DNA from: Enoplolaimus lenunculus
Lineage: Eukaryota > Nematoda > Enoplea > Enoplida > Thoracostomopsidae
Assembly (NCBI GenBank): GCA_030248215.1
Contig: JASANG010003514.1
Location: 62,001 to 126,000 of the forward strand
Reading direction: 5' to 3'
DNA: 64,000 bases
Both the position numbers and the translations under genes were made by a program. The notes below the pieces were generated by a model. It did no database searches, was not told the origin of the DNA, and saw only the letters and a program-made list of their open reading frames with translations. Positions 9,569 to 62,558 of the stretch are shown one piece after another (the stretch's first letter is position 1; every line of letters begins with the position of its first letter).

Positions 9569-9872
9569 GGCCATTGTATAGAATAGGGCCGCGACCGTAG
9601 TATAAGCATATTGCTAAGCCTATGCCTAAATCTTAACCTAAGCCAAATCCTAATTGTAAGAGTGAGCTTGAACCTATGCCTAAGCCTAAGGAAAAAATTA
9701 GAACAGGTACGGAACAGTAGTATATGCAAAATCGTAAGCGAAAGTTCAAGCGTAAGCGTAGGAATGAGCGTATACCTAAGCTTAAGCCTAAGCCATAAAT
9801 TAGTCTAAAACTTTAGCTTGCTCTATTTTAGGCGCACAGAAAAACGTTCCGCCGCTGATCTTTACCTTGGCC
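9569..9872. mobile_element. Telomere-repeat MITE, family A/C hybrid end
   Basis: Ends are GGCCATTGTATAGAATAGGG and CTGATCTTTACCTTGGCC. The core holds degenerate CCTAAG units in two blocks separated by a GAATGAGC-type spacer, with the usual subterminal TTTAGCTTGCTCTATTTTAG and CACAGAAAAACGTTCCGCCG. About 300 bp and diverged. Confidence 0.7.
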
Positions 9873-10582
9873 GAACGGTTCAAGCTATCTGTACTGTTTA
9901 TTTAGTTTAGAAACCATGTTTAGATTATATCTTCAAAAAGTGTTAGGTTTAAGCCTAAGCGGACATTTTAACCGAATTCCATACTTAATTAACTAACTGC
10001 TCGGATAGGTGCTATACGCATTTGAGAATACGGGCCCTAGCCTGGCTCCACAACCAAACCGTAATATTTCAATACCCACGTTCAAAGCCTGATCTTGACA
10101 CATTCCTTAAATTAAATCTTTCCCACACCCGTATAACAAGCGACGCTTACAACCATGCCTGCAGTTTACGTTCCTTGTTTAGAGTTTGCGACAGTTTCAA
10201 AGCGAGGGCGGAATGTTTAAACCAATAAATACGTCAAACGCATTATTAAACTCTGACCACACTGGCATATTCAAAAATTTGAAATTAATGGGAACAACCG
10301 CCGATAACAACCCCACTATCATATAAGCTGGTAAAAATAGATTTTGGCAAATAGGTAAACGCTTACTCAATAACGCGATGACCCTACCTAAACGAAAATG
10401 AAATTCGATCGCCAGAATCTGTGCCCCACCCGCCCCCCGTTCTCGGAGGGCCCATGTCTTGAAATGTGTCCCAGCGTCTGGCTTATTTCATACGGTATAC
10501 GGTTTGCTAATTATTTCCGGTTTACAAAACTTTGTCACTAACCATGTGTCTTTGCGTTTATAAAAATAACACTACAGTATAA
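9873..10582. other. No gene seen
   Basis: A 68-codon frame at 10022-10228 is unsupported. Otherwise unremarkable sequence. Confidence 0.4.
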
Positions 10583-10740
10583 GCCAGTAGCCAGATTTAC
10601 CTTGCTAGGGAAGACTAAAAAATTTTAACGAGAGAGGCATACAAGGGTATTCGGTACAAGCAGGCTTGAAAATATTCTATGGGGGGTCAAAATTGTTCCA
10701 GGGAAGCTTAGCCCCTCGCCCGGGCCCCGATACGAGCCTG
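10583..10740. mobile_element. MITE family F copy
   Basis: Contains CCAGTAGCCAGATTTACCTTGC, GGCATACAAGGGTATTCGG and AAGCAGGCTTGAAAATATTC, with a C-rich right end GCCCCTCGCCCGGGCC. The right inverted repeat is degenerate. Confidence 0.5.
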
Positions 10741-10920
10741 CATACAGTAGTTTATTTTTGAACTTTGACGCATATAATATAATATAGGCAGAAGCCAGAC
10801 TGTGGTGTTACTAAATTTAAAATATTACTTCGATTCAACAAGGATTTCAATCGTCAAAGTTAACAGGCAACGTGAGTAAGCTATAGTTTATTTTGTGCCT
10901 CGAAATTTTTAAATAAAAGT

Positions 10921-11145
10921 GGCCCATGTATAGAACAGGGCTGGATCGTTTTCCGGCGGGGCTGTAATACAGTCAGTTTACGCTTTAGACTATCTTTTTG
11001 CTTTTGCTTAGGCTTCGGCTTAGGCTTAGGCTTAGGCTTAGGCTTACGCTTAGGAATAGGCTCATCCTTACGCTTAGGCTTAGGCTTAGACTTTGGCTTA
11101 GGAATATGTTTAAATACTGTGCCGCCCACGTTCTTTACATTGGCC
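10921..11145. mobile_element. Telomere-repeat MITE, family C
   Basis: GGCCCATGTATAGAACAGGG opens the element and TTCTTTACATTGGCC closes it. Between them lies GCTTAGGCTTAGGCTTAGGC, a CGCTTAGGAATAGGCTCAT spacer and a second TTAGGC block. The flanking 8-mers ATAAAAGT and AGAAAAGT match at 7 of 8 positions, as expected for an ageing 8-bp target duplication. Confidence 0.85.
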
Positions 11146-11389
11146 AGAAAAGTCAACCAAGCAGGGCCATAGGTATGGCAAACGACCCCATATCCGCTTC
11201 GACCTGATATTTAGGGCCTTTTGGAGCTGTGACGTAGCAGCTGATCTAATAATAGAATCACGTACACAGAGGAGACTTATATATTGCCGGAAAAATACTC
11301 TAGAGCGAGAAACCAAATCAGCGTAAATAACGCAATCCTTAACCTGAATAGCGTCGAAGGGGTAAAAGTGTTCTAAAATCACATTTACT

Positions 11390-11440
11390 GTAGTGACCTA
11401 AATAAGAGAGGGGTAGGGGTTCCCATTTTGAGTCCCAATT
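11390..11440. mobile_element. Family M terminal fragment
   Basis: ACTGTAGTGACCTAAATAAG matches the terminal repeat of the 450-bp family M elements at 13585 and 21271. Confidence 0.5.
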
Positions 11441-11866
11441 AATAGAAGTGTGTATTCCTAATAAGAGTTCATAAACGGATAGAGTCTCTAAACGCTAATT
11501 AAATGCTTCGTCTGGTTCGTTTTGCTATAAATCTTAAACCTAAAGACACTTCTGCATTTTAAGAAGCGGTTTTTGTCGCCAGCAATTTCTTATGCGTTTA
11601 ATACAAGGTAACAAATGTCAAATTGCATTATAGAATGAACCGGAAATTTAGTTTTTGGCCTAAACACTTCATTTTCTAAACTTTAAAGCCAGCCACGCAC
11701 TTGACGGGCGATTAAAACCAAATGACAAGGCGGTGAGAAAACATGCCTAAGCGCATTCATAGTGCATATTTCTAGCGAGTCAGTTTCGCTTATAACCTCT
11801 ACCAGCCAACGTGGTTTCAAATTTACAACTCTAAAACGTTTCTCATAAAACGTTTTAAAAAATATG
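11441..11866. other. No gene seen
   Basis: No frame longer than about 60 codons and no recognised repeat. Confidence 0.4.
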
Positions 11867-11990
11867 CTCTAATTTGCATATATATGCTGTCTCTTGTTTA
11901 TATATAAAACAATCATTACAACAGCTGGAACGCTGTTCAAAGTACGACGTATGTGGGACGTTCTAGATTTAATAATATGGATGTCAATAT
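11867..11990. repeat. Dispersed repeat, family S
   Basis: CTAATTTGCATATATATGCTG, CTGTCTCTTGTTTATA and CATTACAACAGCTGGAACGC align with 59551-59665. Function and ends are unknown. Confidence 0.5.
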
Positions 11991-12039
11991 CATTTTTCCA
12001 GTTGCAACAAATTGCAAATTTGAACTTTTGAAAAACTCC

Positions 12040-12243: not shown

Positions 12244-12255
12244 CACTAAAGCGTC

Positions 12256-12435
12256 GGCCACTTATAAAGAACACGGCCGTAACAGCAGTATACGCATATT
12301 CATAAGTCTAAGCTTAAGCGTAAGCGTAAGAATGAACTTATACGTTGTCCTAGGTAAAAAAATTAGTCAAAAGCTTAAGCTTACTTTATTCTAGATTCAC
12401 AAAAAAACGTTCCGCCTCTGATCTTTACATGGACC
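12256..12435. mobile_element. Telomere-repeat MITE, family A
   Basis: Begins GGCCACTTATAAAGAACACG and ends CTGATCTTTACATGGACC. The core is reduced to TAAGTCTAAGCTTAAGCGTA, so this copy has few intact TTAGGC units. Confidence 0.7.
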
Positions 12436-12874: not shown

Positions 12875-13000
12875 ACCTTTTTTGGTTAGGCTTAGGCTTA
12901 TGCTTAGGTGCAAACTCATTTTTACTTTTAAGCTTAAGATTAGGTTTAGGCGTAGGAATATGCTATACTACAGTTACGCACCTGTTTTGCACCTTGGCTT
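12875..13000. mobile_element. Telomere-repeat MITE, 5'-truncated family A
   Basis: TTAGGCTTAGGCTTATGCTTAGG, a CAAACTCATTTTTACTTTTA spacer, a second TTAGG block and the terminal CACCTGTTTTGCACCTTGGC are present. The left arm is missing. Confidence 0.6.
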
Positions 13001-14035: not shown

Positions 14036-14659
14036 CATTCCCCAAATGGGAAGCTTCACGCCGGAGGCCGCAGGGATTCCCCAGGATTGATAAAATAACG
14101 ATTTTTTGCATTGAATCTTTGGATTGGTTCAAATATAATTCTGGTTACTACTTCGCTCGTTGAGAATGCGAAGTTTTCTTCAAATGAGTTACTTGAGCCA
14201 GACGGTCAGACCCGATCCACGTCCCTGTGAGAAGTTCGTGATTTACCTGATTATTATGTAATGTTTCACTATATTTTATGTTTGTATACAATAAATATGT
14301 CTAAACAGCCGTTACTGTCCGTTTCGTCCTTAGAGGTCGCACGTATGATACCAAAGGTACAAAATGAAGTTATTTTATACCTACACGGTTATCCTTGAGT
14401 CGGGCAAAAACTAAGACAGGCGTTGGATAGAACACCGGGTTGAGGTATTGACTTTAGGGTCCCGCGGATCTTTTCTCTGGGGTGCCCGACTTTCTGCGGT
14501 TTCTTAAAAATCGTAGGATTTAAAAAATTTACATATCTGAACTTTTCATGCCATCCTGTAGTCACTACATGTTAAAATTTTAATTTTTAAAAATTCAATT
14601 TTTTTTCGCTTACGTAATTTATAATTTATATATCATTCGATGGTATCCAACTTTTCGCT
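14036..14659. other. No gene seen
   Basis: AT-rich, with poly-T and poly-A stretches at 14570-14620. No recognised feature. Confidence 0.4.
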
Positions 14660-14813
14660 ACTGTAAAGAACAGCGGCGGAACAGTATTAAGCATATTCTT
14701 AAGCCTAAGCCTAAGCCTAAGCCAGTCATAAAAAATTTATCTAAATCCTTCAAGCTTACTCTATTATAGTCCCGCACAAAAACATTCCGTCTCTGATGTT
14801 TTACATGGACCAA
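14660..14813. mobile_element. Telomere-repeat MITE, family A, short
   Basis: ACTGTAAAGAACAGCGGCGG begins it and GATGTTTTACATGGACC ends it. A single CCTAAGCCTAAGCCTAAGCC block is present, and the spacer with the second block has been lost. Confidence 0.7.
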
Positions 14814-16122: not shown

Positions 16123-16300
16123 GGCCAATGTACAGAACAGGGGGGTGGAACAGTAGCATAAGCATAATCCTAAGCCTAAGCTTAAACCTAAGCGTAGGAA
16201 TGAGCAAGCCAAAGCCTAAGCAAATAAATTGTCTAATGCGTAAGCTTCCTTTATTCTAGACCCACAGAAAAACGTTACACCCCGGATCATTACATGGGTC
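16123..16300. mobile_element. Telomere-repeat MITE, family A, with 8-bp target duplication
   Basis: Starts GGCCAATGTACAGAACAGG and ends CGGATCATTACATGGGTC. CGACTCAC flanks both sides (allowing a one-base ambiguity at the right end), which gives a perfect 8-bp duplication. The core has two CCTAAG blocks around AGCGTAGGAATGAGC. Confidence 0.85.
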
Positions 16301-19456: not shown

Positions 19457-19684
19457 GGTCCAAGTTACTTTAAGGGGCGTCCAGGTGTCTGGTGCGTCTA
19501 TAAAAGAGTATGTTTTTAGATTCTAGACTACATTTTTTGCTTAGGCTTAGGCTTAGGCTTAAGAGTTTATTTTTTGTAAAGCTTAGGCTTAGGCTTAGAC
19601 TTGGGAGTTCATTTTTTCAACGCTTAGGCTTAGGCTTAGGAAGACGCTTAATCACCTGTTAGGCCCCTAACAGTAACATTGGCC
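19457..19684. mobile_element. Telomere-repeat MITE, family B
   Basis: Begins GGTCCAAGTTACTTTAAGGG and ends CCTAACAGTAACATTGGCC. The core has three GCTTAGGCTTAGGCTTAGG-type blocks. Flanking ATCCTTTT and ATACTTTT agree at 7 of 8 positions, consistent with an 8-bp target duplication. Confidence 0.85.
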
Positions 19685-25082: not shown

Positions 25083-25175
25083 GTCATACCTATGCCTAAA
25101 TCTATGCCTAAGGACAAAATTAGTCAAAAGCTTTGACTTGAATCTATTTCAGTTCCACAGAAAAAGGTTCCGCTG
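25083..25175. mobile_element. Telomere-repeat MITE fragment, family A
   Basis: CCTATGCCTAAATCTATGCC, AAAATTAGTCAAAAGCTTTG and CCACAGAAAAAGGTTCCGC form a partial right arm with a degenerate core. Confidence 0.55.
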
Positions 25176-25201: not shown

Positions 25202-25400
25202 GGCCCATGCAAACTACAGGGGCGGAACGTTTTTCTTTGGGACTGCAATAGAATATTAAGCTTAAACTTTAGACTATTTTTTCTGCTTAGCTTAGGCTTA
25301 GGAATATGCTCATTCTTACGCTTAGGTTTGGGCTTACGCTTACACTTAGGCTTACGAATATGCTTATAATACTGTTGCGCCCCTGTTCTTTAAATTGGTC
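25202..25400. mobile_element. Telomere-repeat MITE, family A
   Basis: GGCCCATGCAAACTACAGGGG opens and CTGTTCTTTAAATTGGTC closes the element. AACAAAGC and TACAAAGC flank it (7 of 8 match). The two TTAGGC-type blocks are separated by AATATGCTCATTCTTACGC. Confidence 0.85.
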
Positions 25401-25979: not shown

Positions 25980-26077
25980 AGGGTACGCTTAAGCACAAAA
26001 ATTAGTCTAAAACTTAAGCTTACTCTATTCCAGTCTCACAGAGAAACGTTCTGCTCCTGATCTTTACATGGGCTCTA
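25980..26077. mobile_element. Telomere-repeat MITE fragment, family A end
   Basis: AAAACTTAAGCTTACTCTATTCC, CACAGAGAAACGTTCTGCTCC and GATCTTTACATGGGC make up an isolated right arm directly behind the D2 copy. Confidence 0.6.
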
Positions 26078-26582: not shown

Positions 26583-26754
26583 GGCAAGTGTTACTGCTTA
26601 GGGGCGTAACAATAGAATAAGCGTATTCCTAAGCCTAAGCGTTGCAAATATGTGTTCCTAAGCCTAAGCCTAAGCAAAAAATGTAATCTAGAATTTAAGT
26701 CTACTCTTTTACAGACCCACCAGATACTTGGACGCCCCTTAACTTAACTTGGGC
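26583..26754. mobile_element. Telomere-repeat MITE, family B, perfect 8-bp target duplication
   Basis: The ends are GGCAAGTGTTACTGCTTAGGG and CCCTTAACTTAACTTGGGCC. GTTTTTCT lies immediately outside both ends, an exact 8-bp direct repeat. The core is two CCTAAGCCTAAGC blocks separated by GTTGCAAATATGTGTT. Confidence 0.9.
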
Positions 26755-26917
26755 CGTTTTTCTTATATTCCGTTGAACGATAGGTTAATAAGCGAGTAAA
26801 TAGACGGCCGAGCCAATGCAACGCTGGCTTACGATTGGTTTAAAAATTTCAATTTGTATATTGCAGCGTACGAGTCCAGTACAAATTGAAATGATTTATA
26901 AGTAATTTACAACTAGC

Positions 26918-30997: not shown

Positions 30998-31184
30998 GGA
31001 CCAATGAAGAATAGGGGTGAAACAGTATTATTAGGATATTCCTAAGCTTAAGCCGAAACCTAAGCGTAAGACTGAGTTTATTCTTAAGTCTAAGCCTAAG
31101 CCTAAGCCAAGCAAAAATAAATTAGTCTAAAGCTTAAGTTTAGTCCCACATAAAAACGTTCCGCCCCTAATCTTTACATGGTCC
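30998..31184. mobile_element. Telomere-repeat MITE, family A
   Basis: GGACCAATGAAGAATAGGGG and CCTAATCTTTACATGGTCC bound two CCTAAG blocks. The subterminal CTATTG-type piece is deleted, so TTTAGTCCCACA follows AGCTTAAG directly. Confidence 0.75.
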
Positions 31185-36914: not shown

Positions 36915-36954
36915 TCGCAACAGTCAAACGAAAAACGAAAAAAAGTGTAATTAG

Positions 36955-44602: not shown

Positions 44603-44784
44603 CATAGACCATGAGCGTAACAGTAGTATAAGCATATTCCTAAGCCAAGAAAGAGTTTATACCTAAGTCCTAAGTCTAAGCCTATAAGCCTGCGTCTAAA
44701 CAAAAAATTAGTCTATTAAAGCGTAAGCTTTACTGTATTGCAGGTCCACAGAAAAACGTTCCGTCCCTAATCTTTATATGGGCG
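44603..44784. mobile_element. Telomere-repeat MITE, family A
   Basis: Left end decayed (ACATAGACCATGAGCGTAAC), right end CCCTAATCTTTATATGGGC. The core CCTAAGTCCTAAGTCTAAGCC is degenerate. Confidence 0.7.
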
Positions 44785-45096
44785 CAAATTTTTACAGCTC
44801 TACCGTAATAGTACATTTCAAAAAAAATTGAAAAGTAATAGAAGAACTTCAAGCTCTGAAACCAAATTCCGGTCTTTAAATGCGGATACAAGATATACAA
44901 GACACACTACCTTTCAAACCATTTTTGCGTATAAGAACGAAATAATCCATAGACATGAATAAGTGAGAATATAAAACTGTCACAGTACAAGCGGAATATC
45001 ACGGATAAAGGATCACAGACTTTGAATATAAGTTGGTAAATTTAATAATGCAACTTCCACAATAACATGCGTACACCATGTGACTTTTGAGGAGGT

Positions 45097-48700: not shown

Positions 48701-50207
48701 ATGCCACTGTATAATACCACTGATACCAGTTTCATGTCTAGGTACGCACTCATGGGCCCATGTTACTTTTAAAGCCGTCTCGGTTTGTGGTGGGTCTGTA
48801 AAAGAGTAAGCTTACATTCTAGACTACATTTTTTTGCTTAGGCTTAGGCTTAGGCGTAGGCTTAGGCTTAGGCTTAGGCCTAGGTTTAGGCTTAGGTTTA
48901 GGTTTAGACATTGTAGCGGAGATTGGGTTAAAAATAAACAGTCCGCAACCGAATAACAGGGAAAAACCCTATGGAGAGGCCAAACAAATATCAGTCCCTC
49001 CTTTTATTCGGGTCACTACAGTACCAATCATTAATGAATTTCGATAAACCAGTCGTAGCGGGACTACATTTATTGAGCGAAGCTCGAACGTACGTAAGCA
49101 ATTAAGCTAATATGCAAATTAGCTATTAGCTAACTATTCAATTATTGGTTTTGGATGTTTGTAAACTATTTATTCAAATTCCTCGCATCCAAAAACCCTT
49201 CAGCCACTCTAATAATTTTTGGAATAATTTAAAAAGTCCTAATTTTGTTTTGTCAATTAAGCTAATATGCAAATTAGTTATTAGCTAACTATTCAATTAT
49301 CGGTTTTGGATGTTTGTAAACTATTTATTCAAATTCCTTGCACCAAAACACCCTTTAGTGCTGAAATTATATTTCTTTTAACCTTAATAATTAGTGAAAT
49401 ATTGTAAAAAGTCCTAATGTAGGCTTATAAACTATGCTAATATGCAAATTATCTATTAGGTAACTGCTCAATTATCGGTTTTGGAAGTTTGTAAACAGTC
49501 TACGCAGATTCCTCGCACCCAAAAACCCTTTAATGTTAAAATTAGATTGGTTCTAATTGTAATAATTAGTGAAATATTGTGGAAAATCCTAATTTAGGCT
49601 TAATTAATTATGCAAATTAGTCTGTAGCTAATAAAGCTTAAAATTTTAAAACCCTAATGCGAGGTTAAAACCCTAATGCGAGGTTAAAACCCCAGGATAA
49701 TTGGCTTTCAAACAAAAATAGTTTATCAAAATCGGTTCAGCCGTTCCTGAGATTCTTTTCGGACGGACAGACGGACATCCACCTTTCGACCCCAAGTACA
49801 AAACATAAAACGCTTCGCGAAACTCAGAGCTTCGCTCGGAGTTTCGCTTCGCTCATTAATGGACTTCAATCAAACGCATCTGATTGGCCTATTCTATAGA
49901 TAATCCAAAAACAACATATTTAAATATAATAAAAACTTAGATAATAAAAATAAATACAAAACTAACCTTTACTACCCGGGTCCCAATCAAATTTTACACT
50001 GGTACACACCGATACAAATCCTTTGCCTTGTCCAATGATAGAACAGTTATGGTTGTGAAGTTTGCCGTGTGCATCAGGATACGCTTTGGTCACTATTTTG
50101 ACCAGCCAGTCGATGTCTACTGGAAGTTTGACAGAATCTTTCTCGGTGGCATTTTGAGAAGCTGCGGAGTTGTCTTCGGACGTAGACTGTGTCACTTCAG
50201 TAGCCAT
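45287..50207 (-). CDS. CHK-kinase-like protein (EcKinase/DUF1679-type), gene A, four exons
   Basis: Exons on the minus strand are 49967-50207, 47986-48220, 47168-47423 and 45287-45751, giving 398 residues. All introns are GT-AG with phases 1, 2 and 0. The fold is an aminoglycoside-phosphotransferase-like kinase. Visible motifs are a Gly-rich loop IIGQGKGF (57-64), the ATP-binding Lys in AVVIK (92), its partner Glu in HNQE (110), the catalytic loop CLGDLQPNNILW with Asp259 and Asn264, and the metal-binding Asp284 in LDFQ. The usual His of the HGDL motif is Leu257 here. Relatives phosphorylate small molecules such as ecdysteroids or choline; the substrate here is unknown. It has an 11-residue deletion after Lys92 relative to gene B, which lies upstream in the same orientation about 3 kb away. 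The ATG at 50207 begins MATEVTQSTS, matching gene B in length. Confidence 0.85.
46049..46208. mobile_element. MITE family Q in gene A intron 3
   Basis: AAAGCAGGGCATACAACCCC on the left and GGCCTGCTTCGGCACTG on the right are inverted. AAACTTTAAAAAATATTTTGATCATC inside is shared with 54918, 55409 and 58331. Confidence 0.6.
46428..46795. mobile_element. Foldback element, family G, complete, in gene A intron 3
   Basis: AACCAAGAGTGGATGATCATTG faces AGTGATCATCCACTCTT. GTTGCATTTTTGGTCGACC faces GGCCAAAAACGCAACGCG. About 365 bp with long arms. Confidence 0.75.
47168..47423 (-). CDS. Gene A exon 3 (256 nt)
   Basis: Acceptor TTTTGCAG, donor GTT/GTAAGT, phase 2 in and 0 out. Encodes the helical segment NIEQTLQLVDNVAKVQAFG. 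The length equals gene B exon 3. Confidence 0.85.
47986..48220 (-). CDS. Gene A exon 2 (235 nt)
   Basis: Acceptor ATTTTAG, donor GG/GTAATC, phase 1 in and 2 out. Encodes LPRAVVIK, HNQECN and MLILEDLTEIGVS, the last a conserved stretch of the family. Confidence 0.85.
48266..48456. mobile_element. Telomere-repeat MITE, family B, in gene A intron 1, perfect target duplication
   Basis: GGCCAATGTTACTTTAAGGAG and CATAAAGTAACATGGGTC are the ends. ACATTTTG occurs at 48258-48265 and 48457-48464, an exact 8-bp duplication. The element ends 45 bp upstream of the exon 2 acceptor. It splits an otherwise open minus-strand frame. Confidence 0.95.
48749..48912. mobile_element. Telomere-repeat MITE, family B, 3'-truncated
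   Basis: GGGCCCATGTTACTTTTAAAG starts it, and a TTAGGC block of about 12 units follows, drifting to TTAGGT. The right end is missing and the block runs into a family M half element. Confidence 0.8.
48950..49027. mobile_element. Family M half element
   Basis: CCCTATGGAGAGGCCAAACAAATATC and TTTTATTCGGGTCACTACAGTA are one end of family M, abutting the truncated telomere-repeat MITE. Confidence 0.6.
49099..49625. repeat. Three-copy tandem repeat of about 155-175 bp in gene A intron 1
   Basis: CTAATATGCAAATTAG, TATTCAATTATNGGTTTTGG and CCAAAA(AC)CCCTT(T/C)AG recur at 49106, 49261 and 49436, with a partial fourth copy near 49600. The units contain TGCAAATTAG words and diverge moderately. Confidence 0.75.
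49690..49862. mobile_element. Possible retroelement or MITE tail with GGACAGACGGAC motif
   Basis: AAAATCGGTTCAGCCGTTCC followed by GAGATTCTTTTCGGACGGACAG matches a motif seen at the ends of dispersed elements in many invertebrates. Downstream, CGAAACTCAGAGCTTCGCTCG and GGAGTTTCGCTTCGCTC form an inverted pair. The class is inferred. Confidence 0.4.
49967..50207 (-). CDS. Gene A exon 1 (241 nt)
   Basis: Runs from the ATG to a donor reading AAAG/GTTAGT, phase 1. Encodes residues 1-80, including the Gly-rich loop. Gene B exon 1 has exactly the same length. Confidence 0.85.
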
Positions 50208-51509: not shown

Positions 51510-51709
51510 GGCCCATATTACTTTTAGGGTCGTCCCGATTTCCGGCGGGTCTGTTAAAGAGTAGGCTTACATTCTAGAGTACATTTTTTGCTTAGACATC
51601 AGCTTAGGCATAAGCTTAGGCTTTGGCTTACGAAAACGCGTTTGCAACGCTAGGCTTAGGCTTAGGAATACGCTTAATCTACTGTTACACCCTAAAAGTA
51701 ACATTGGCC
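51510..51709. mobile_element. Telomere-repeat MITE, family B
   Basis: GGCCCATATTACTTTTAGGG and CCCTAAAAGTAACATTGGCC are well-matched ends. AGCAAGTT and GACAAGTT flank it (6 of 8). Confidence 0.85.
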
Positions 51710-51984
51710 GACAAGTTCATGTAAAATCAGGATTATATGAAGTAAGAGACCATATTTACCCCAAAATTCCGAAACTAACGAGCTGAAATTGAAGTTTGGT
51801 CAGTGCTATTTTAGAGAGCGCAACTACAGCCTAAGCGTATTTCTAATACGAAAAAGACTAAGCATAAATAATTCAAAACATAGCCTAAGCCTGAGCCTGA
51901 GCAAAAAATAGTCTAAAATTTAAGTCTTCGTAAAACCCAACCTGAAGCGTATAAGCTTTAGTCTATTTCATTTCAACTGGAGGT

Positions 51985-52050
51985 CCATGTGAAGATCAGG
52001 AGCGAAACGTTGTTCTGTGGGACTGCGATAGAGTAAGCTTAAGATTTCGA
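51985..52050. mobile_element. Telomere-repeat MITE, isolated family A left arm
   Basis: GTCCATGTGAAGATCAGGAGCG and TGTTCTGTGGGACTGCGATAG, then the core is missing. Confidence 0.6.
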
Positions 52051-52100
52051 ATAATCTACGACTGTCGTTCGAAGTGTAGCTGGATTAATTATGTTGTTGT

Positions 52101-52272
52101 GGCCAATGTATTGTACAGGAGAGAAACAGTAGCATCAACGCATTCCTAAGCCGAAGCCTAAGCGTAAGAATGAGCTTACACAAAAGCGCAAGCGTAGCAA
52201 AAAATTGTCTAAAGCTTGAGCTTACTCTATTTCAGTCCCACAGAAAAACGTTCCGTCCTGACCTTTTTGGGC
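52101..52272. mobile_element. Telomere-repeat MITE, family A
   Basis: GGCCAATGTATTGTACAGGAG begins and CGTCCTGACCTTTTTGGGC ends this shortened copy. Confidence 0.75.
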
Positions 52273-52354
52273 TGTTCTTAACAACTTAATTAAGGACACA
52301 AAGCACAGTGTACGTACAGAAACGTGAAATTTTACCTTTGACAGCAAAATACAG

Positions 52355-52559
52355 GGGCAAATGTAAAGAACAAGGGTGGAACAGTATTATAAGCTTATTC
52401 CTAAGCCTAAGCCAAAGCCTAAGCGTAAGAACGAGTTTATTTCTAAGCCTGAGCCTATTGCACCAAAGCCTAATCCAGGCAAAAAATTTAGTCTAAAGCT
52501 AAAGCTTATTCTATTCTATTCCCATAGAAAAACGTTCCGCCCCTGATCTTTACATGGGC
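52355..52559. mobile_element. Telomere-repeat MITE, family A
   Basis: GGCAAATGTAAAGAACAAGGG and CCTGATCTTTACATGGGCC bound two CCTAAG blocks around GCGTAAGAACGAGTTTATTTC. Confidence 0.85.
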
Positions 52560-53261
52560 CATACATTCGAGAATGTGGGTACTTGGTTATATGCTAAACG
52601 CACAAGCATTATTATTCTAAGAAGTATCGACAGTTTAAAATAAAATAAAAAATAAATAAATAAATAAAAATACAACACTCCAAACATTAAATCTCTCAAA
52701 TCGCGTCGTGAGAGGGTTGGAACTGGTCCGATTCTTAGGGTTAGGGCGCGGCCTGGGTCCATCACCCTCGGCCCACCCGATCCACATGGATCCGGGCCCG
52801 GAAATTTTATATTTTTTGGAGCACAAAACAAAACATGTAACAAATGGTATCTGATTGCAAATTAAGTACTTGCCATACATGGCAATCTGTTGTCAGAAAA
52901 TATAAACGTTCAAATGCAAAAACGTCCAACCGAATAGCAGGAAAACAATTTTAGAAAAATGTCTAGGTATTGCGTTCGTCTGTTGCGTGTGTACAGACTG
53001 TCGGATCTGGGCGCGTCCTCAGACATAAAGTGATAGAAATGAACGATTACAATTCCGAATGGATCGATTTTACCAACAAACTGTGAGTTGTACCCCCTAG
53101 CGGATTAAATTTTTTGTGACAAAATGACAAAATCTTAATCTTACAATTTTCCCATCAGAAAATTTTTTGGTGATAAAATCCGATTTAATTAGCAATTTTT
53201 GCTGTTTTTATATTCGATCTTCATATAAAATTTTTGCGTCAAATTAGTCGGTTGTTTTTTG
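52560..53261. other. Gap between gene B 3' end and the MITE cluster
   Basis: (AAAT)n near 52640-52670, then a GC-rich patch with CACATGGATCCGGGCCCGG at 52780. No gene is visible. Confidence 0.45.
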
Positions 53262-53723: not shown

Positions 53724-56700
53724 CTAAAATAAACACTTTAACGCGTTCCCAAAACAAATCTGGAAACTTGTAGCAGTGACAGATTCAGGAATGGTTCGTA
53801 ACGAATCTGAGGTTGGTTTAATTTCCACGAGTTAGTTTAGGGACCAATTTTTGAGTTCATTTTCAGGCCCTCAACATTTTGACGAACTACGTAACTGAAC
53901 CAGGCCGAATCGCAAGCTTCTCGAGCTGAATTTGAAGGAAATATCGAAATATTTCAAACGCAGAGAGCGAAGAGTCAAACACTGTTGTCTTAACAACAGT
54001 ACAAAGCTGCAGTTTAGAGTCCGTCTGGTCGCCAATCATTGGATCAATGAAATGTGTGTAAAACACCTTTGCCCGTATTCTCAAATCTGTGTGTAGCACC
54101 TATTACCAGTTCGTGATAAGTCTTGTAACGATGAGGTTTGAAATTGAGCACATTTATTGCATTCCATTAATACTCTACTTCTGTGCAAATTTTGACGTGT
54201 GCAAGTGCAACAGTTTGTTAGCTTGAAAACCTATTACTAACATTTCAAACCTCACCATTCCTTGGTTCGAAGGTTACAAGACCTATCATCCAACTTAGGC
54301 GCTACACGCATCTGACTAATATAGTAGGACTCTTTACTCTAAACATCGGAAGTTTCGCTTCTGCGTTGTTTCGAATGCGTGAAATTTCATCCAGACTGAA
54401 TTTGACACGATCTCTGCCAATTTCTTCGACTGCTTTGGCTACGTTTTCGTCAAATTTAGCAAATATTTCTTCAAACGGGTTATTTTTAATCGGTTTGAAA
54501 TATTTGCCATCGTCAGGATGATTTATCCCGTATGCATGAACGCGAGCCACATTAGCAATAACAGCTTTCATCTTATCAACAGTGATTGTTTCTCTATAAC
54601 GCAACTGCGGCCCATGTATGGAACAGGGCAAGATCGTTTTCCGATGGGGCTGTAACGTAAGCTTTAGATCAGCTTTTGTGCTTAGGATTAGGATTAGGCT
54701 TAGGCTTAGGAATAGGCTCATCCTTATGCGTAGGCTTAGTCTTAGGCTTTGGCTTAGGCTTAGGATTATGTTTGTACTCCTGTTCCGGCCCTGTTTCATA
54801 CATGGGCACAACATCTACGTATAAAAGGTCTTAAGTTGTAAGAGGGGCACGTGAACGCACATTGAAATCAACTCATTTCAACAGAGTTTTAAACAATAAC
54901 TCTTTCTAGAGCTAACCGATGCCGGAGCAGGCAAGGGTGCCCCCCTTCCAAAATTTTAGGGTAGAGTCCCCTTGTGATGATCAAAATATTTTTTAAACTT
55001 TTCGTTTAAAATATTGTTAGAGTAGGGGTTTCTATAAGGGTGGGTTCCTCTTTGGGGTGTCCTCCCCCCAATTGGGGGTATGGTGGGTGACTGCTCTGGC
55101 ATTGGTGCTAACTTTGTTTATATCTTTTATTTTTTAACAACTCATGTACGTTCATCTAAACTACACTAAACTCAGTCGTAACCTTTTGTCACATGAATAT
55201 TTTCTATTTTATTTAAGACCTAATTGATTCGAACTCCGGAGACTGGAGTGAGAGGCGTTTATCATCACCGCTCGGCTATATTAGCATATTATTAATGGCT
55301 CTAAATTTGGCGTCATACAGAATGTATATGCTGTATTTATCAACGGATACTAAGTAGTGACAACCATCAGATTTATTGTCTGAGCAGGCCAAATGCTGCC
55401 GAAAAGCATGGCCGGAGCAGCCATCCCCCATATCCTCCATTTGGGGCCCATAAAAGGAGTCCCTCCCAAACAAGATTTTAAACAAATATAAAAAATATTT
55501 TTATCATCGCTGAGAGCCTTCACCCCGAAATTTTTGGGGACACCCGCCCAAGGCTGCTCCGGCATTTCCGAAAAGTACAAAGTAAATAATCTTCCTGGCC
55601 ACCATGCTAAAGTCAACGGACACATTGTGATGCTAATAAACCATGCCATTTGGGGTGTCATGTTTCTATTATTACATAAGCGGCACAGCCTTGGTAGCAA
55701 GCGTGTATATTTCACTAATTTTTCAATAGCTTTCGATAGAAATTTATGGAGTTTTTGAAAATTTGTCGTGTTTCGTAAAATATAGGATTCACTATAATCC
55801 TACCGTGGGTGGTGGTGCCGGTGGCTGACTATCTCAGGTTGATAATGAACTTTTCCCAACAGCTGTTACTGTAATGTCTCCAACGAACCAATGGTTGGCT
55901 TTTCACAACCGCTGTTAATCTAACGTTTCTAACGAACCAATGGTTGGCTTTTCACAACCGCTGTTAATCTAACGTCTTCAAAGAACCAATGGTTGGTTTT
56001 TCACAACAGCTGTGAATCTAATATCTCCAACGAACCAATGGTTGGCTTTTCACAACAGCTATTAATCTAATGTCTCCAACGAACCAACGGTTGGCTTTTC
56101 ACAACAGCAGTTAATCTAACGTCTTCAACGAACCAATGGTTGGCTTTTCACTGGCTTTTCACAACAGCTGTTCAGCTAACGTCTCCAACGAACCAATGAT
56201 TGGCATTTCACAACAGCTATTAATCTAATGTCTCCAACGAACCAATGATTGGCTTTTCACAACAGCTATTAATCTAATGTCTCCAACGAACCAATGGTTG
56301 GCTTTTCACAACAGCAGTTAATCTAACGTCTTCAACGAACCAATGGTTGGCTTTTCACAACAGCTGTTAAGCTAACGTCTCCAACGAACCAATGATTGGC
56401 TTTTCACAATAGCTATTAATCTAATGTCTCCAACGAACCAATGATTGGCTTTTCACAACAGCTATTAATCTAACGTCTTCAACGAACCAATGGTTGGCTT
56501 TTCACAACAGCTGTTAAGCTAACGTCTCCAACGAACCAATGATTGGCTTTTCACAACAGCTATTAATCTAATGTCTCCAACGAACCAATGGTTGGCTTTT
56601 CACAACAGCTGTTAAGCTAACGTCTCCAACGAACCAATGATTGGCTTTTCACAACAGCTATTAATCTAATGTCTCCAACGAACCAATGATTGGCTTTTCA

Positions 56701-59700
56701 CAACAGCTATTAATCTAATGTCTCCAACGAACCAATGATTGGCTTTTCACAACAGCTATTAATCTAATGTCTCCAACGAACCAATGGTTGGTTTTTCACA
56801 ACAGCTATTAATCTAATGTCTCCAACGAACCAATGATTGGCTTTTCACAACAGCTATTAATCTAATGTCTCCAACGAACCAATGGTTGGCTTTTCACAAC
56901 AGCAGTTAATCTAACGTTTTCAACGAACCAATGGTTGGCTTTTCACAACAGCTGTTAGGCTAACGTCTCCAACGAACCAATGATTGGCTTTTCACAACAG
57001 CTATTAATCTAATGTCTCCAACGAACCAATGATTGGCTTTTCACAACAGCTATTAATCTAACGTCTTCAACGAACCAATGGTTGGCTTTTCACAACAGCT
57101 GTTAAGCTAACGTCTCCAACGAACCAATGATTGGCTTTTCACAACAACTATTAATCTAATGTCTCCAACGAACCAATGATTGGCTTTTCACAACAGCTAT
57201 TAATCTAATGTCTCCAACGAACCAATGATTGGCTTTTCACAACAGCTATTAATCTAATGTCTCCAATGAACCAATGGTTGGTTTTTCACAACAGCTGTGA
57301 ATCTAATGTCTCCAACGAACCAATGGTTGGCTTTTCGCAACAGCAATTAATCTAATGTCTCCAACGAACCAATGGTTGGCTTTTCACAACAGCAGTTAAT
57401 CTAACGTCTTCAACGAACCAATGGTTGGCTTTTCACAACAGCTGTTAAGCTAACGTCTTCAACGAACCAATGGTTGGCTTTTCACAACAGCAGTTAATCT
57501 AACGCCTTCAACGAAACAATGGTTGGCTTTTCACAACAGCTGTTAAGCTAACGTCTCCAACGAACCAATGATTGGCTTTTCACAACAGCTATTAATCTAA
57601 TGTCTCCAACGAACCAATGATTGGCTTTTCACAACAGCTATTAATCTAATGTCTCCAACGAACCAATGGTTGGCTTTTCACAACAGCAGTTAATCTAACG
57701 TCTTCAACGAACCAATGGTTGGCTTTTCACAACAGCTGTTAAGCTAACGTCTCCAACGAACCAATGATTGGCTTTTCACAACAGCTATTAATCTAATGTC
57801 TCCAACGAACCAATGATTGGCTTTTCACAACAGCTATTAATCTAATGTCTCCAACGAACCAATGGTTGGCTTTTCACAACAGCTGTTAAGCTAACGTCTC
57901 CAACGAACCAATGGTTGGCTTTTCACAACCGCTGTTAATCTAATGTCTCCAACGAACCAATGATTGGCTTTTCACAACAGCTGTTAATCTAACGTTTCCA
58001 ACGAACCAATGGCTGGCTTTTTACAACAGCTGTTAAGCTAACGTCTCCAACGAACCAATGGTTGGCTTTTCACAACAGCTATTAATCTAATGTCTCCAAC
58101 GAACCAATGGTTGGCTTTTCACAACAGCTGTTAATCTAATGTCTCCAACGAACCAATGGTTGGCTTTATGTCTCCAACGAACCAATGGTTGGCTTTTCAC
58201 AAAAGCTATTAATCTAATGTCTCCAACGAACCAATGGTTGGCTTTTCACAACAGCTGTTAATGTAACGTTTCCAACGAACCAATGGTTGGCTTTTCACAA
58301 CAGCTGTTAATCTAATGTCTCCAACGAACCAGTGCCGGAACAAGCTAGCGTGAGGGCCGCTATAAATTTCGGGGTGCGGGCCCCTTGCAATGATCAAAAT
58401 ATTTCTCAAATTTGTTAATTTAAAATCTTGTTAGGGTGGAGACCCTTTTTTGGCGTGGGGCTTTCAAACGGGGATACGGGGGGTGGCTTCTTCGGCCGTG
58501 CAACGTTCTATAACAATTGCAGTTGAGCAATTAGGTGAGTATGCAATTTAATTTTCAATTTCAACTTACGCAAACGGTAAACTAACACCAATTTCGGTTA
58601 AATCTTCCAAAATCAGCATTCCAGGATTAGTTTCGTCCGCAAATTCATAGTGAAACAATTTCGCGAGTGGAATCGGAGCCGGTGAATGTTCGTTAAAATA
58701 CAAATACGCGTTGCATTCTTGATTGTGTAGCGTAATTAATTGTGATCGAATAACTTTGGCAAAATCTTCACTGAACTGTGACATTCGTTCAGATGTCGGT
58801 ATTTTGATTACTACCGCTTTTGGTAGGGAATCAATGCCTGTAAAACTTATAAGTTTGAAAATTCGGCATACCGAACCAGCGCTGCGGATTGGTAGCCGGA
58901 GTGAGGGGGGCTCAGCCTCTTCTAAATAATTTTGGCTCCCCCTGACAATATTTTTTAACCTTGCTTGTAACGTTAACCAAAATCCTTGTATGCCCAAAAA
59001 ATTTTAGCTTTTTCTAGCAACATGAGCTGTCTATGGCTTTGCAGGGCTTGCGTGATGTAGGCATTGCGTATTTTTGAATTAATGTATTTCATCAGCAAAA
59101 CGGTCAATCTTACTTTAAGGGGTGTAACAGTAGATTAAGCGTATTCCACAGCCTAAGTCTAAGCCTACGCGTTGCAAAAATGAGTTCATAAGCCTAAGCG
59201 TTAGCAAAAAATGTAATCTAGAATCTAAACGTACTCTTTTATAGACCCACCAGAATCTTGGACGCCCCTTAAAGTAACATGGGCCAGCAAAACGATATTA
59301 AACAGTTGGCCCTAAAACCCATGTCTTGGCAGCAAAATTTCCTAAATTTTACTACATCAAACGACCAATGACAATGTATACTGAAAAATCCCAGCTTGAA
59401 TGTTAGCCAGAGTGATGACTCTTAATACAATGTACTACATCGGTAAATAATTGCAAGAAGTTACAAACTTGCATAAATTCTTGTTGCGCAACTACTAGTT
59501 AGGTGGCAAACTTTGCAATCCTAAAAAATTCCTCGTTAAACTTTTTAAGAATGTGTTCTAATTTGCATACTGTCTCTTGTTTATACATCAAACAGTCATT
59601 ACAACAGCTGTAACGCAGCCCAAAATACGTATGTGAGAAGTTCCAGGTTTAATAGATATAGTGTACATGAAACGTTCAAAGCAAACCAGATACAAATGTT

Positions 59701-60187
59701 TTAACAACAGAGTATACATTAATGGGCCCATGTATAGAACAGGGCCGGAACAGTAGTATAAGAATATTCCTAAGCCTAAGCCTAATCCTAAGCATAAGTG
59801 TATGAATGACCATATTCCTAAGCCTAAGCCCAAGCCTAAGCCTAAGCAAAAAAATTAGTCTAAAGTTTAAATGGACTTTATTATAGCCCTCCGGGAAACG
59901 ATCCGGCCCTGTTCTATATAGTGGCCCATTAATGTTTTGAACGTACCTTTACTGCTTGGATCCCAATTAAACTTAACACTTGTGCACACCGAGACAAATC
60001 CCTTGCCTTCACCAATAATGGAACAACTATGACTTCGAAGTTTACCATCCGCTCCAGGACAAGCATCGTTCACGGTTTTAATAAGCCACTCGAGATGAAC
60101 CGGAAGTTTGACCGGTTCCTTGGCAGCGGCTGTCTTTGAACTTTCTTCTTTTACTTCGTCGGTAGTCGGCGTCTCTTTTGTAGTCAT
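53262..60187 (-). CDS. CHK-kinase-like protein (EcKinase/DUF1679-type), gene B, four exons
   Basis: Minus-strand exons 59947-60187, 58570-58837, 54338-54593 and 53262-53723 encode 408 residues with the same intron positions and phases (1, 2, 0) as gene A. Motifs are IIGEGKGF (57-64), Lys92 in AVVIK, Glu121 in HNQE, CLGDLQPNNILW with Asp270 and Asn275, and Asp295 in IDFQ. As in gene A the HGDL His is replaced by Leu (268), so the change predates the duplication. The N-terminal 50 residues differ (MTTKETPTTDEVKEESSK) while the kinase motifs are conserved, which suggests both copies are under constraint. Intron 2 is about 4 kb and repeat-filled; intron 1 has a MITE 14 nt past the donor. The substrate is unknown, and detoxification or small-molecule phosphorylation is plausible from family knowledge. 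Confidence 0.85.
54338..54593 (-). CDS. Gene B exon 3 (256 nt)
   Basis: Acceptor GCGTTATAG, donor AGA/GTAAAG, phase 2 in and 0 out. Encodes ETITVDKMKAVIANVARVHA. The acceptor has little pyrimidine tract because a MITE ends 15 nt upstream. Confidence 0.8.
54609..54807. mobile_element. Telomere-repeat MITE, family C, against the gene B exon 3 acceptor
   Basis: GGCCCATGTATGGAACAGGG and CCCTGTTTCATACATGGGC are matching ends. TTAGGATTAGGATTAGGC and GCTTAGGCTTAGG blocks lie inside. It ends 15 nt upstream of the exon on the minus strand. The 8-mers next to the ends no longer match, so the insertion is old or rearranged. Confidence 0.85.
54918..55107. mobile_element. MITE family Q
   Basis: CCGATGCCGGAGCAGGCAAGGG and GACTGCTCTGGCATTGGTGC are inverted. 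GTGATGATCAAAATATTTTTTAAAC is the shared interior. In gene B intron 2. Confidence 0.65.
55183..55283 (-). mobile_element. tRNA-derived SINE, family H
   Basis: GTCACATGAATATTTTCTATT (tail), TTGATTCGAACTCCGGAG (reverse B box) and ACCGCTCGGCTATATTAG (reverse A box). In gene B intron 2. Confidence 0.6.
55409..55564. mobile_element. MITE family Q
   Basis: ATGGCCGGAGCAGCCATCCC and GGCTGCTCCGGCAT are inverted ends. AAACAAATATAAAAAATATTTTTATC lies inside. Confidence 0.65.
55878..58330. repeat. 49-bp minisatellite, about 50 copies, in gene B intron 2
   Basis: Each unit is close to TCTCCAACGAACCAATGGTT, GGCTTTTCACAACAGCTATT, AATCTAATG. Three main variants alternate: GATTGG with CAGCTATTAATCTAATG, GGTTGG with CAGCTGTTAAGCTAACG, and GGTTGG with CAGCAGTTAATCTAACGTCTT. 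Their order recurs in blocks of three to five units, a higher-order pattern. Nearly every unit has CCAATNATTGG or CCAATNGTTGG, and many have AACAGCTGTT. The array fills most of the intron. Confidence 0.97.
58331..58500. mobile_element. MITE family Q abutting the minisatellite
   Basis: AGTGCCGGAACAAGCTAGCG and GGCTTCTTCGGCCGTG are the decayed ends. AATGATCAAAATATTTCTCAAAT is shared. The element begins inside the last minisatellite unit (CGAACCAGTGCCGG). Confidence 0.6.
58570..58837 (-). CDS. Gene B exon 2 (268 nt)
   Basis: Acceptor TTTTACAG, donor TTTGC/GTAAGT. Encodes IDSLPKAVVIK, HNQECNAYLYF and GMLILEDLTEIGVS. It is 33 nt longer than gene A exon 2. Confidence 0.85.
58880..59045. mobile_element. 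MITE family F in gene B intron 1
   Basis: TGGTAGCCGGAGTGAGGGGG with GGCTCAGCC, AACCTTGCTTGTAACG and ACATGAGCTGTCTATGGC correspond to a decayed family F copy just upstream of the exon 2 acceptor. Confidence 0.5.
59102..59285. mobile_element. Telomere-repeat MITE, family B, perfect 8-bp target duplication, in gene B intron 1
   Basis: GGTCAATCTTACTTTAAGGGG and CCTTAAAGTAACATGGGCC are the ends. AGCAAAAC flanks both exactly. The core is short (CTAAGTCTAAGCCTACGCG and AAGCCTAAGCG). Confidence 0.9.
59551..59665. repeat. Dispersed repeat, family S
   Basis: CTAATTTGCATACTGTCTC, TTGTTTATACATCAAACAG and CATTACAACAGCTGTAACGC are homologous to 11867-11990. Confidence 0.5.
59725..59926. mobile_element. 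Telomere-repeat MITE, family C, perfect target duplication next to the gene B exon 1 donor
   Basis: GGCCCATGTATAGAACAGGG and CCCTGTTCTATATAGTGGCC bound two CCTAAG blocks. CATTAATG occurs at 59717-59724 and 59927-59934. The donor GT of exon 1 lies at 59945-59946, so the element ends 18 nt inside the intron. Confidence 0.95.
59947..60187 (-). CDS. Gene B exon 1 (241 nt)
   Basis: ATG at 60187 to donor AAAG/GTACGT, phase 1. Carries the Gly-rich loop. A family C MITE begins 20 nt below the exon edge. Confidence 0.85.
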
Positions 60188-60795: not shown

Positions 60796-61173
60796 AGGGT
60801 TCCATCGGAATTCCGATTCCGGCAAAATTTGACTTCCGATTCCGGCTGACTGCAGTTCTGATGCCGGAATTCTGATTTTTCGGTTATGAGTTTTTAAGAT
60901 GATTGGACCTTAGATTTTGCTTGTTTCGTTTTGTTTCGTGCATTTGCAATTATTCTATTGGTTTTTTCTTTGTAAATATATTCCGTCAGCTATATAAACA
61001 ATTTTTACTGAAACTGTGAACAGTTACGGAAACAGGCATACTACAACAAATGCTAAGTCCTACACCTTTAACTTTTTAATAGAACTATTAAAACTTGACT
61101 CCGATTCCGATTCCTACGGAAAATGATTCCAAATTCACTTCCGGCAAAATCTAGTTCCGGTTGCAAACCCTGA
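60796..61173. repeat. Repeat rich in CCGATTCCGG words, possible inverted ends
   Basis: GCAGGGTTCCATCGGAATTCC on the left and CCGGTTGCAAACCCTGAC on the right can pair. GATTCCGGCAAAATTTGACTTC pairs loosely with TTCACTTCCGGCAAAATC. No gene is visible. Confidence 0.45.
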
Positions 61174-61387
61174 CATTTAGTCTCTCGGATGCACAGCATG
61201 AGCTGGTGTCGTCTACATTGGTCACAGCCTGTCACAGCGGCAATTATCAAAGAAACATGTGTTACGAACAGATAAAAACGTTTTCGCAAAAATATTTCGT
61301 TGTATTAAAAATTCCAAACTAAAACATTTTCACCAAATTAAGCTGTTTTATATTTATCGCATCGTACAACACACCAGTCCACCACTG

Positions 61388-61525
61388 TCGAAGGGTTCAG
61401 GACTTGCGATCTTTTAACTAAACAGCTGAAAAAGCCGACCGGCAACGAAGGGATCAAACTTCAAGCTTGTGGATTCCGAGCCAAGCGTTATTACCACTGC
61501 TCCACGTAACCTGCCTTTTCAACTG
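61388..61525 (-). mobile_element. tRNA-derived SINE, second family
   Basis: Minus strand: ACGTGGAGCAGTGGTAATAACG (A box), GAAGTTTGATCCCTTCG (B box), then the tail GGCTTTTTCAGCTGTTTAG and AAGATCGCAAGTCCTG, homologous to 28318-28445. Confidence 0.6.
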
Positions 61526-61796
61526 CTTTTTCGACCATGCACCGGGACAAGCATGGTACAACTGTTTCTACTGTTACAGTAAGGGAACTTGAGTGCGAAG
61601 TCAAATGAATCCAAAAATTGACGTATGTGTTGTTGCAGCAAAGACCGACAACTATCCTGCTACGGTAACTCAACCCAACACCACGCACTGCGCCGTGGAA
61701 AGATCATATTGTAAAAACCCAAGTTTCAAAATTCGGTTCAAATTGTTGGTACTAACGGTCTGCACGACCCCTGTTTGAAGTTTTGGCCAAAGTTAA

Positions 61797-61868
61797 TGAC
61801 CACGCCGGGATTCGAACCTCGGCCCTCTTGCACACGAGCCAAGCATGCTATCACTACACAGTGCGGTC
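61797..61868 (-). tRNA. tRNA-Thr(CGT)-like gene or pseudogene
   Basis: The minus strand folds as a cloverleaf. GACCGCA and CGTGGTC form an acceptor stem (one mismatch, one G-U), CTTGG/GCAAG an anticodon stem (one mismatch) with loop CTCGTGT, and CGAGG/CCCGG a T stem with two mismatches around TTCGAAT. GTGTAGTGATAGC matches an A box and GGTTCGAATCCC a canonical B box. Stem mismatches and repeat-rich surroundings favour a pseudogene or SINE head over a working tRNA. Confidence 0.45.
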
Positions 61869-61882
61869 ATTGCAATAACTTC

Positions 61883-62140
61883 GTATACCGGTATACGTGC
61901 ACAGGCATGGCAACACTTGCAGTGGCGGATCCAGGATCTCAAAATGGGGGGGGGCAAAATTTCACAGGTAACAAACTTATTTTTGACCCATACTGTAGTG
62001 ACCGAAATAAAAGGGGGGTCCCCATTTTGAGTCCCAATATAATTTTTGTCGAGATGCTGTTGGGGAGGGCCACGGCCGGGGTGCCCCCCCCGTGGATCCG
62101 CCATTGAACACTTGCTTTACGTGCACATATACCGACACAA
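61883..62140. mobile_element. Foldback (family I) split by a hAT-like MITE
   Basis: GTATACCGGTATACGTGCAC and TTACGTGCACATATACCG are the outer inverted ends; 35947-36016 is the uninterrupted form. Confidence 0.7.
61920..62106. mobile_element. hAT-like MITE, family J, with perfect 8-bp target duplication
   Basis: CAGTGGCGGATCCAGGATC and CCCCGTGGATCCGCCATTG are inverted ends of the hAT CAGTGGCGG type. AACACTTG lies on both sides (61912-61919 and 62107-62114). The interior contains ACTGTAGTGACCGAAATAAA, a family M end. Confidence 0.85.
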
Positions 62141-62391
62141 ATAAGACAGAACTAAAACAAGCCTGTGCGATGAATATTCTGATATGTTTAGCTTGATTAC
62201 ATTGTTTAAGTTTCGTATTGTTTAGCGGTATTTGAATATGCAAATCAAGGCTTATAATTGCTCAAAAATTCACATTCGTGTGTATAATTTTCCAACAAGT
62301 GCGTTAATAGGTTAAAATATGCAAAAAACTAACTAATTTTGAAACCAAAAGCTGGGAATAAGGCTAATCTGGTAAATACGTCAACTTGGTT

Positions 62392-62558
62392 GGCCCATGT
62401 AAAGATCAGGGACGGAACGTTTTTCTGCGGGACTGAAATTGAGTAAACTGAAACTTTAACTTTTTTTGTTTAGGCTTAGGCTTAGGTGTAAGCTCATTCT
62501 TTCACTTTAGGATTAATATTCTTATACTACTGTTACGGCGCTGTTCTATGCATTGGTC
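62392..62558. mobile_element. Telomere-repeat MITE, family A
   Basis: GGCCCATGTAAAGATCAGGG and CGCTGTTCTATGCATTGGTC are the ends, one A-type and one C-type. The TTAGGC core is short (GTTTAGGCTTAGGCTTAGG). Confidence 0.8.

Follow-up and report, generated by a model that had tools for sequence, protein, structure and literature searches.

What is the source of the many short stretches of the telomere-type hexamer TTAGGC that lie in the interior of a nematode contig? The DNA in question is a window of 64,000 nucleotides (positions 62001-126000 of contig C666, in an assembly of 296,342,434 bases and 3185 contigs). An earlier reading, made from the letters alone (hereafter the sequence-only reading), had described the TTAGGC blocks of this window as cargo of a group of miniature inverted-repeat transposable elements (MITEs). 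Our analysis makes it likely that a MITE group with a telomere-type minisatellite as its core seeds most of the short interstitial telomeric repeats found here.

In the window, runs of at least two exact TTAGGC units occur 24 times. Its 200 dinucleotide-shuffled versions average 0.005 such runs and never exceed 1, and a chance origin of these runs was therefore rejected. Single units number 124, versus 32.1 in dinucleotide shuffles. Genome-wide, (TTAGGC)3 was found at 14,969 + 15,568 positions (30,537 in total), as against 10 + 8 (18) for the reversed pattern. For a closer view we analysed a 264-kb sample, comprising the window with 10 kb on each side, 14 contig starts (10 kb each) and four 10-kb regions that were picked for containing long TTAGGC arrays. 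Among perfect tandem hexamers of at least three copies, TTAGGC accounted for 16 of the 21 found in contig starts and for all 16 found in the window sample.

A run was regarded as linked to an element when an element end lay at most 250 bp away, on the expected side and strand. For the window and its flanks this applied to all 25 runs of at least two units and to all nine of at least three, while 21.8% of positions drawn at random have an end of any kind within 250 bp. In the four long-array regions, 15 of 23 runs of at least two units and seven of 13 of at least three were linked, and all samples pooled gave 69 of 79 runs of at least two units. When lone units were included, 182 of 308 TTAGGC units were linked, as expected of a population that also contains chance hexamers. 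The contig starts bear on an alternative in which the runs are ordinary interstitial telomeric repeats, left by fusions or telomerase-aided break repair, with the transposons merely nearby. We hold this alternative to be extremely improbable: 29 of 31 contig-start runs of at least two units, and 11 of 11 of at least three, are linked to ends on the expected side and strand, and the elements carry target-site duplications (TSDs) at their own ends (see below). In its favour, five of eight long arrays have no recognised element around them in the flanks that were read. In the pieces sampled, most of the short telomere-like stretches thus apparently owe their presence to a transposon and not to chromosome fusions.

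The evidence for insertion comes from the element borders. The 264-kb sample gave 170 end matches, 143 of which stop no more than six bases short of the outer boundary. In all, 55 pairs could be assembled. The 8-mers flanking the paired elements matched at 0.632 per base (0.306 for shuffled partners). A perfect 8-bp TSD was present in seven of the 55 pairs (0.14 expected), and at least seven of eight bases agreed in 18 pairs (0.51 expected), that is, the TSD has a fixed length, as in MITEs. The match was 0.38 at a length of 7 and 0.36 at a length of 9, and all remaining lengths between 4 and 11 stayed at the shuffled level. Since the paired elements are flanked by an 8-bp TSD, they are insertions, and this signal is the signature of a cut-and-paste transposon. 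The TTAGGC blocks are therefore mobile with a transposon, as the sequence-only reading had claimed; the TSD itself, and the three end-subfamilies described next, are features absent from that reading.

All elements share inverted ends of the type GGCC[C/A]ATGT..., and three end-subfamilies can be told apart by consensus: A (GGCCCATGTAAAGATCAGGGGCGGAAC ... GTTCCGCCCCTGTTCTTTACATTGGCC), B (GGCCCATGTTACTTTAAGGGGCGTCC ... GTTACGCCCCTAAAAGTAACATTGGCC) and C (GGCCCATGTATAGAACAGGGCCGGATCG ... TGTTACGGCCCTGTTCTATACATTGGCC). In each of them the terminal inverted repeats (TIRs), again a MITE feature, are about 27 bp long and contain few mismatches. Among the 55 pairs, one (401 bp) re-uses the 3' end of its neighbour and was removed, leaving 54 paired elements for structure counts. 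These are 139-304 bp long, and 13 of the 54 combine ends of different subfamilies, mostly A with C. At least one exact TTAGGC is present in 49 of the 54, at least two in tandem in 35, and none in five; 18 copies hold 0-2 exact units. Relative to the GGCCCATG end the orientation of TTAGGC is fixed (198 units forward, two reverse), and the core is present, in this single orientation, in all three subfamilies. The blocks are separated by a spacer of the GGAATATGCTCATTCTTACGC type, as previously read, which occurs 0, 1, 2 or 5 times in 12, 33, eight and one of the 54 elements, respectively. This spacer of about 24 bp is similar to the 3' subterminal stretch of the element and therefore probably arose by duplication. 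The core, with its TTAGGC blocks and variable number of spacers, behaves as a minisatellite. The element at C1:19453-19701 shows this cleanly, with blocks of four, four and three perfect units and a perfect 8-bp TSD. The samples thus directly show shared ends, TSDs, a fixed orientation, the density of the elements and arrays inside them.

The elements are short, non-coding and, like other MITEs, numerous. Across the 140 kb of the 14 contig starts we counted 40 elements or solo ends, a density of 2.86 per 10 kb (bootstrap 1.86-4.00). Scaled to the whole assembly this gives about 85,000 copies (55,000-119,000), a rough estimate given that contig starts are a non-random sample and that some solo ends may be parts of one element. 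In the window itself the element ends form 35 clusters, of which 23 are paired and 12 are solo, with a few of the solos representing another part of a paired neighbour. The roughly 30 complete or partial elements with inverted ends proposed earlier were thus recovered at their places between 9569 and 62558, but ends also occur beyond this range, the first at 7564 and the last at 63862. The copies are as follows (units are exact TTAGGC; TSD is given as matching bases of eight).

9569..9872, minus strand: A/C-type, with an additional C3-like end inside; TSD 5/8
10921..11145, plus strand: paired, C-type 5' and A-type 3' end, 7 units including a run of 4; TSD 7/8
12256..12435, minus strand: paired A/C-type, zero exact units remaining; end matches
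12886..12999, plus strand: 3' part of an element, 3 units, 5' end not recognised; end match
14656..14811, minus strand: paired A-type, single block of 3 units; TSD 6/8
16123..16300, minus strand: paired A-type, 2 units; TSD 0/8 as aligned, by eye an 8-mer match if the boundary is shifted by one base
19457..19684, plus strand: paired B-type, 8 units in three blocks plus one; TSD 7/8
25202..25400, plus strand: paired A-type, 2 units; TSD 7/8
26583..26755, minus strand: paired B-type, 3 units; perfect 8-bp TSD
30998..31184, minus strand: A-type, single block of 2 units; end matches
33812..34085, plus strand: A-type, duplicated 3' part (A3 ends 34006 and 34085); TSD 7/8 with the outer A3, 3/8 with the inner
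34326..34562, minus strand: A-type, subterminal piece duplicated, 3 units in each of two blocks; TSD 4/8
36714..36916, minus strand: paired A-type, 4 units; perfect 8-bp TSD
36959..37114, minus strand: A-type with weak 3' end, adjoining 36714-36916; end matches
38429..38677, minus strand: paired A/C-type, zero exact units; TSD 4/8
44595..44785, minus strand: paired A/C-type, zero exact units; TSD 5/8
48266..48456, minus strand: paired B-type, 5 units; perfect 8-bp TSD
48755..48911, plus strand: 5' half of a B-type element, 7 units, array directly abutting an unrelated MITE fragment (48912-49023); from reading the sequence
51510..51709, plus strand: paired B-type, 3 units; TSD 6/8
52101..52273, minus strand: paired, A-type 5' and C/B-like 3' end, 1 unit; end matches
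52356..52560, minus strand: paired A-type, 3 units; TSD 1/8, none recognisable
54609..54809, plus strand: paired C-type, 4 units; TSD 2/8 as aligned
59102..59285, minus strand: paired B-type, 2 units; perfect 8-bp TSD
59725..59926, minus strand: paired C-type, 5 units; perfect 8-bp TSD
62392..62558, plus strand: paired A/C-type, 2 units; TSD 4/8
7564..7630, minus strand: solo A5 end, no nearby unit; end match
25121..25173, minus strand: solo A5 end, 2 nearby units; end match
26003..26075, minus strand: solo A5 end, no nearby unit; end match
40873..40915, plus strand: solo B5 end, no nearby unit; end match
51982..52053, plus strand: solo A5 end, no same-strand unit nearby; end match
63812..63862, plus strand: solo A5 end, no nearby unit; end match

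The unrelated MITE in this list, of about 460 bp and with ends TACTGTAGTGACCCGAATAA...TTATTCGGGTCACTACAGTA, is present in the window at 21272-21728, at about 13585-14070 and as the fragment at 48912-49023; further copies were seen in loci L021, L031, L035, L037 and L039. It was rejected as a second TTAGGC carrier, being merely joined to the array at window position 48911. Elsewhere in the window, the open reading frames 45290-45766 and 53265-53723 (both minus strand) match the ecdysteroid-kinase-like / DUF1679 families and are apparently paralogues, and there is a weak tRNA match at 61797-61868 (minus strand; 29.8 bits, gathering score 29).

How the arrays fare once inserted was addressed by comparing their divergence with that of the element ends. 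Among 6305 end sites, 748 depart from the consensus (0.119; median 0.102). For the array units the divergence from TTAGGC is 0.066 per site, with two consensus block-edge variants left out. Elements simulated at an end divergence of 0.119 and parsed in the same way gave an array divergence of 0.083 or 0.085 (+- 0.008 or 0.007); at 0.10 it was 0.073 or 0.078 (+- 0.006), and at 0.08 it was 0.065 or 0.066. Nor does array divergence track end divergence (Spearman 0.15, p 0.33, n = 47). One could argue from this that the arrays are kept for a host or element function, as a platform for telomere proteins or a template stock for telomere repair: their divergence is 0.066 where neutral decay at the mean end divergence gives 0.083 +- 0.008, and it does not rise with that of the element. 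However, the excess purity amounts to about two standard deviations, and to one to two at 0.10, near the median end divergence; turnover by slippage explains it equally well; and 18 of 54 copies have 0-2 exact units, few for the putative platform. We therefore regard upkeep for a function as very unlikely. At most, array purity hints at slight homogenisation, as slippage would give.

Another explanation would make the hexamers subterminal repeats bound by the transposase, their match to the telomere unit being a coincidence. Some hAT elements do have clustered short subterminal motifs, the genome contains hAT genes, an 8-bp TSD fits hAT among others, and degenerate hexamers occupy much of the element. 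Nevertheless we consider this explanation unlikely, as the units have one orientation (198 to 2) and form a central block rather than sitting at both ends, five of the 54 elements lack any exact unit, and transposase binding leaves unexplained the long pure TTAGGC arrays that also exist outside elements.

Which transposase might move the elements was approached from the TSD and from the genes present. Its length agrees with the hAT superfamily without being specific to it, since 8 bp fits hAT, P and some other superfamilies. MULE / Mutator elements have a TSD of 9 bp; here the TSD is 8 bp with a weak 9-bp signal, and a genome search for the MULE transposase PF10551 gave 0 matches and 0 candidates, so that membership in this group fails. 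Merlin gave 15 matches, six of which were read as loci of 2.4-3.4 kb, none with GGCC ends and with their own ends mostly unsettled. Two Merlin-type matches (L046 and L047) lie with very long inverted repeats, whose arms measure 100-170 bp and more. hAT gave 45 matches (of 150 scored candidates), and neither of the two loci read has GGCC ends. One of these, L041 (C1802, about 470-3992), is a complete hAT copy with ends CAATGGCGGATCC / CAGTGGCGGATCC and a 498-amino-acid open frame containing a hAT dimerisation domain. With its 8-bp duplication GCTATGGT it shares the TSD length of the TTAGGC elements, whereas its ends are of the type CA[A/G]TGGCGGATCC as opposed to GGCC[C/A]ATG. The other, L052 (C120), shows a short non-autonomous element with L041-type ends beside a piece of a hAT transposase, and the ends of that piece were not identified. 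A scan for long TIR pairs with TSD (264-kb sample plus two 3-kb loci, strict pattern, 58 TIR starts) returned ten pairs, the longest 274 bp. Two other repeats were noticed among the loci. In one, a CATAACT... motif is followed by a short degenerate stretch of TTAGGC (L041 at about 880-1000, L029 at about 8000-8090), and the other, around CGGTGC[A/G]ATATATACTATTTAACGTATATACACTGC, is near-identical in L039 (about 5200-5400) and L023 (about 9000).

Long TTAGGC arrays form a class of their own. Genome-wide there are 813 positions of (TTAGGC)25 and 507 of (TTAGGC)33, which would correspond to roughly 38 arrays of 25-32 or more units; at least 101 of the 507 positions fall in the first five arrays, which leaves room for few kilobase-long perfect arrays. 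We examined eight arrays of at least 20 units, a non-random choice of those first listed or those with a preceding A, and found three inside elements and five outside. They are given here together with two shorter or compound arrays.

C2: 78 perfect units, inside an element; TSD 7/8
C81: 65 perfect units, inside an element; TSD 8/8
C113: run of 21 units, inside an element; TSD 6/8
C47:233279-233476: 33 units, outside any recognised element
C84:50252-50461: 35 units, outside any recognised element
C86:269359-269946: 98 units, the longest of the eight, outside any recognised element
C358:164919-165098: 30 units, outside any recognised element
C2496:11354-11497: 24 units, outside any recognised element, within locally repeated sequence
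C1:396059: array of 16 units, outside elements
near C1:402.1 kb: compound array, outside elements

None of the five outside arrays is enclosed by an element within 280-430 bp or more of flank on each side. At C84 a complete C-type element (49980-50136) sits 115 bases from the array, not around it, and at C358 a copy of the unrelated TACTGTAGTGACCCGAATAA MITE lies about 190 bases beyond the 30-unit run. Several of the non-element arrays are sharp-edged; telomerase-aided break repair or free expansion could be their source. The view that a MITE carries the TTAGGC arrays therefore holds for short runs, which are not mostly outside the elements (29 of 31 in the contig starts are within them), but not for five of the eight long arrays.

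Is TTAGGC a telomere repeat in this species? The genome contains 116 matches to the cuticle-collagen N-terminal domain, which marks nematodes, and is therefore that of a nematode. The SL1 spliced leader is widespread in nematodes; its exact 22-base form has no match genome-wide, pointing either to a variant leader or to a position outside most Chromadorea, and the lineage of this nematode may have a less documented telomere unit. Telomerase is present, with one match to its RNA-binding domain (E 1.3e-18) in an open frame of 729 amino acids. The sequence-only reading had taken TTAGGC for the established nematode telomere unit; a nematode genome with telomerase agrees with this, but no terminal array was met among the eight examined, all interstitial. 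We thus treat TTAGGC as a putative telomere repeat of this species, in a genome that has the telomerase gene but whose telomerase repeat was not read at any chromosome end.

Several observations weigh against the carriage of telomere repeats by a MITE group. In 37 of the 55 pairs the TSD match is below seven of eight, the duplication being decayed, misplaced or none. Five of the eight long arrays, including the longest (98 units, C86), lie outside elements, and all eight are interior, none at a contig end, in an assembly that may lack ends. Finally, no autonomous partner emerged from the MULE search, the six Merlin loci, the two hAT loci or the scan for long TIR pairs.

Given a MITE group as carrier, the repeats may have spread as follows. 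The elements would be a non-autonomous TIR transposon group of about 200 bp with three related end-subfamilies and an 8-bp TSD, its interior a small minisatellite of (TTAGGC)n blocks separated by the spacer of about 24 bp. The ancestor shared by the three subfamilies would already have contained a TTAGGC seed, probably of telomeric, that is, telomerase-made origin. With a transposase supplied in trans, copies of the element would then have reached tens of thousands of sites and thereby spread interstitial telomere-type repeats genome-wide. After insertion the arrays would decay by point mutation, and a few copies would expand by slippage or unequal exchange, up to the 78 perfect units seen at C2.

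Non-autonomous elements with an internal tandem array, MITEs among them, are a known class. The elements described here resemble it in being short, with TIRs, a TSD, no coding capacity and a variable internal tandem array, and differ in that the unit is the nematode telomere hexamer and the copy number very high. It is this use of a telomere hexamer as the tandem unit of a MITE core, at very high copy number, that sets the group apart. The closest named system is that of the telomere-bearing elements (TBE) of the ciliate Oxytricha, reportedly bounded by C4A4 repeats, to go by the title of Herrick's work of 1985. In both cases a DNA transposon carries telomere-type repeats, for which TBE was named. 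TBE is a coding Tc1/mariner transposon, as described in the cited passages (PMC4724952). In TBE the repeats bound a coding element, whereas here they are central to a short non-coding one with an 8-bp TSD and a nematode host. In an armored catfish, to go by a title cited in PMC6410037, a hAT element is said to lie in a single interstitial telomeric site, which was read as a fusion scar; both cases join interstitial telomeric repeats to a transposon, of hAT type there and with a hAT-compatible TSD here, but here a dispersed family carries the repeats. Among the titles and abstract openings of the 3 to 20 best-ranked matches of each literature search, with the RcS5 and Cele repeats left out, we found no TTAGGC-bearing nematode MITE.

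In Caenorhabditis elegans, degenerate TTAGGC tracts are interspersed along the chromosomes, and in telomerase mutants such tracts can template telomerase-independent maintenance, according to the relevant parts of a 2022 review of nematode chromosomes, in which the abundance of these tracts on chromosome arms 'remains a mystery' (PMC9071541). The tracts are alike in being degenerate and scattered; those parts describe no carrier element for them (PMC9071541), whereas a single MITE group holds most of the short tracts sampled here. Transposition of mobile elements is named as a possible origin in the cited portion of a review on interstitial telomeric sequences (PMC6410037). It is conceivable, albeit unlikely, that an animal genome here owes its interstitial telomeric sequences mainly to one transposon family, and that this family, having scattered telomere-type seeds by the tens of thousands, a few of them grown to tens of units, supplies cryptic telomere seeds, that is, sites for telomere-protein binding, break healing or telomerase-independent templating. 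With most of the sampled short tracts inside inserted elements, a concrete carrier for interstitial telomere tracts becomes visible, and the question of their origin can now be tested by genome comparison. In such genomes, searches for fusion scars or telomeres that rely on TTAGGC may mostly find transposons.

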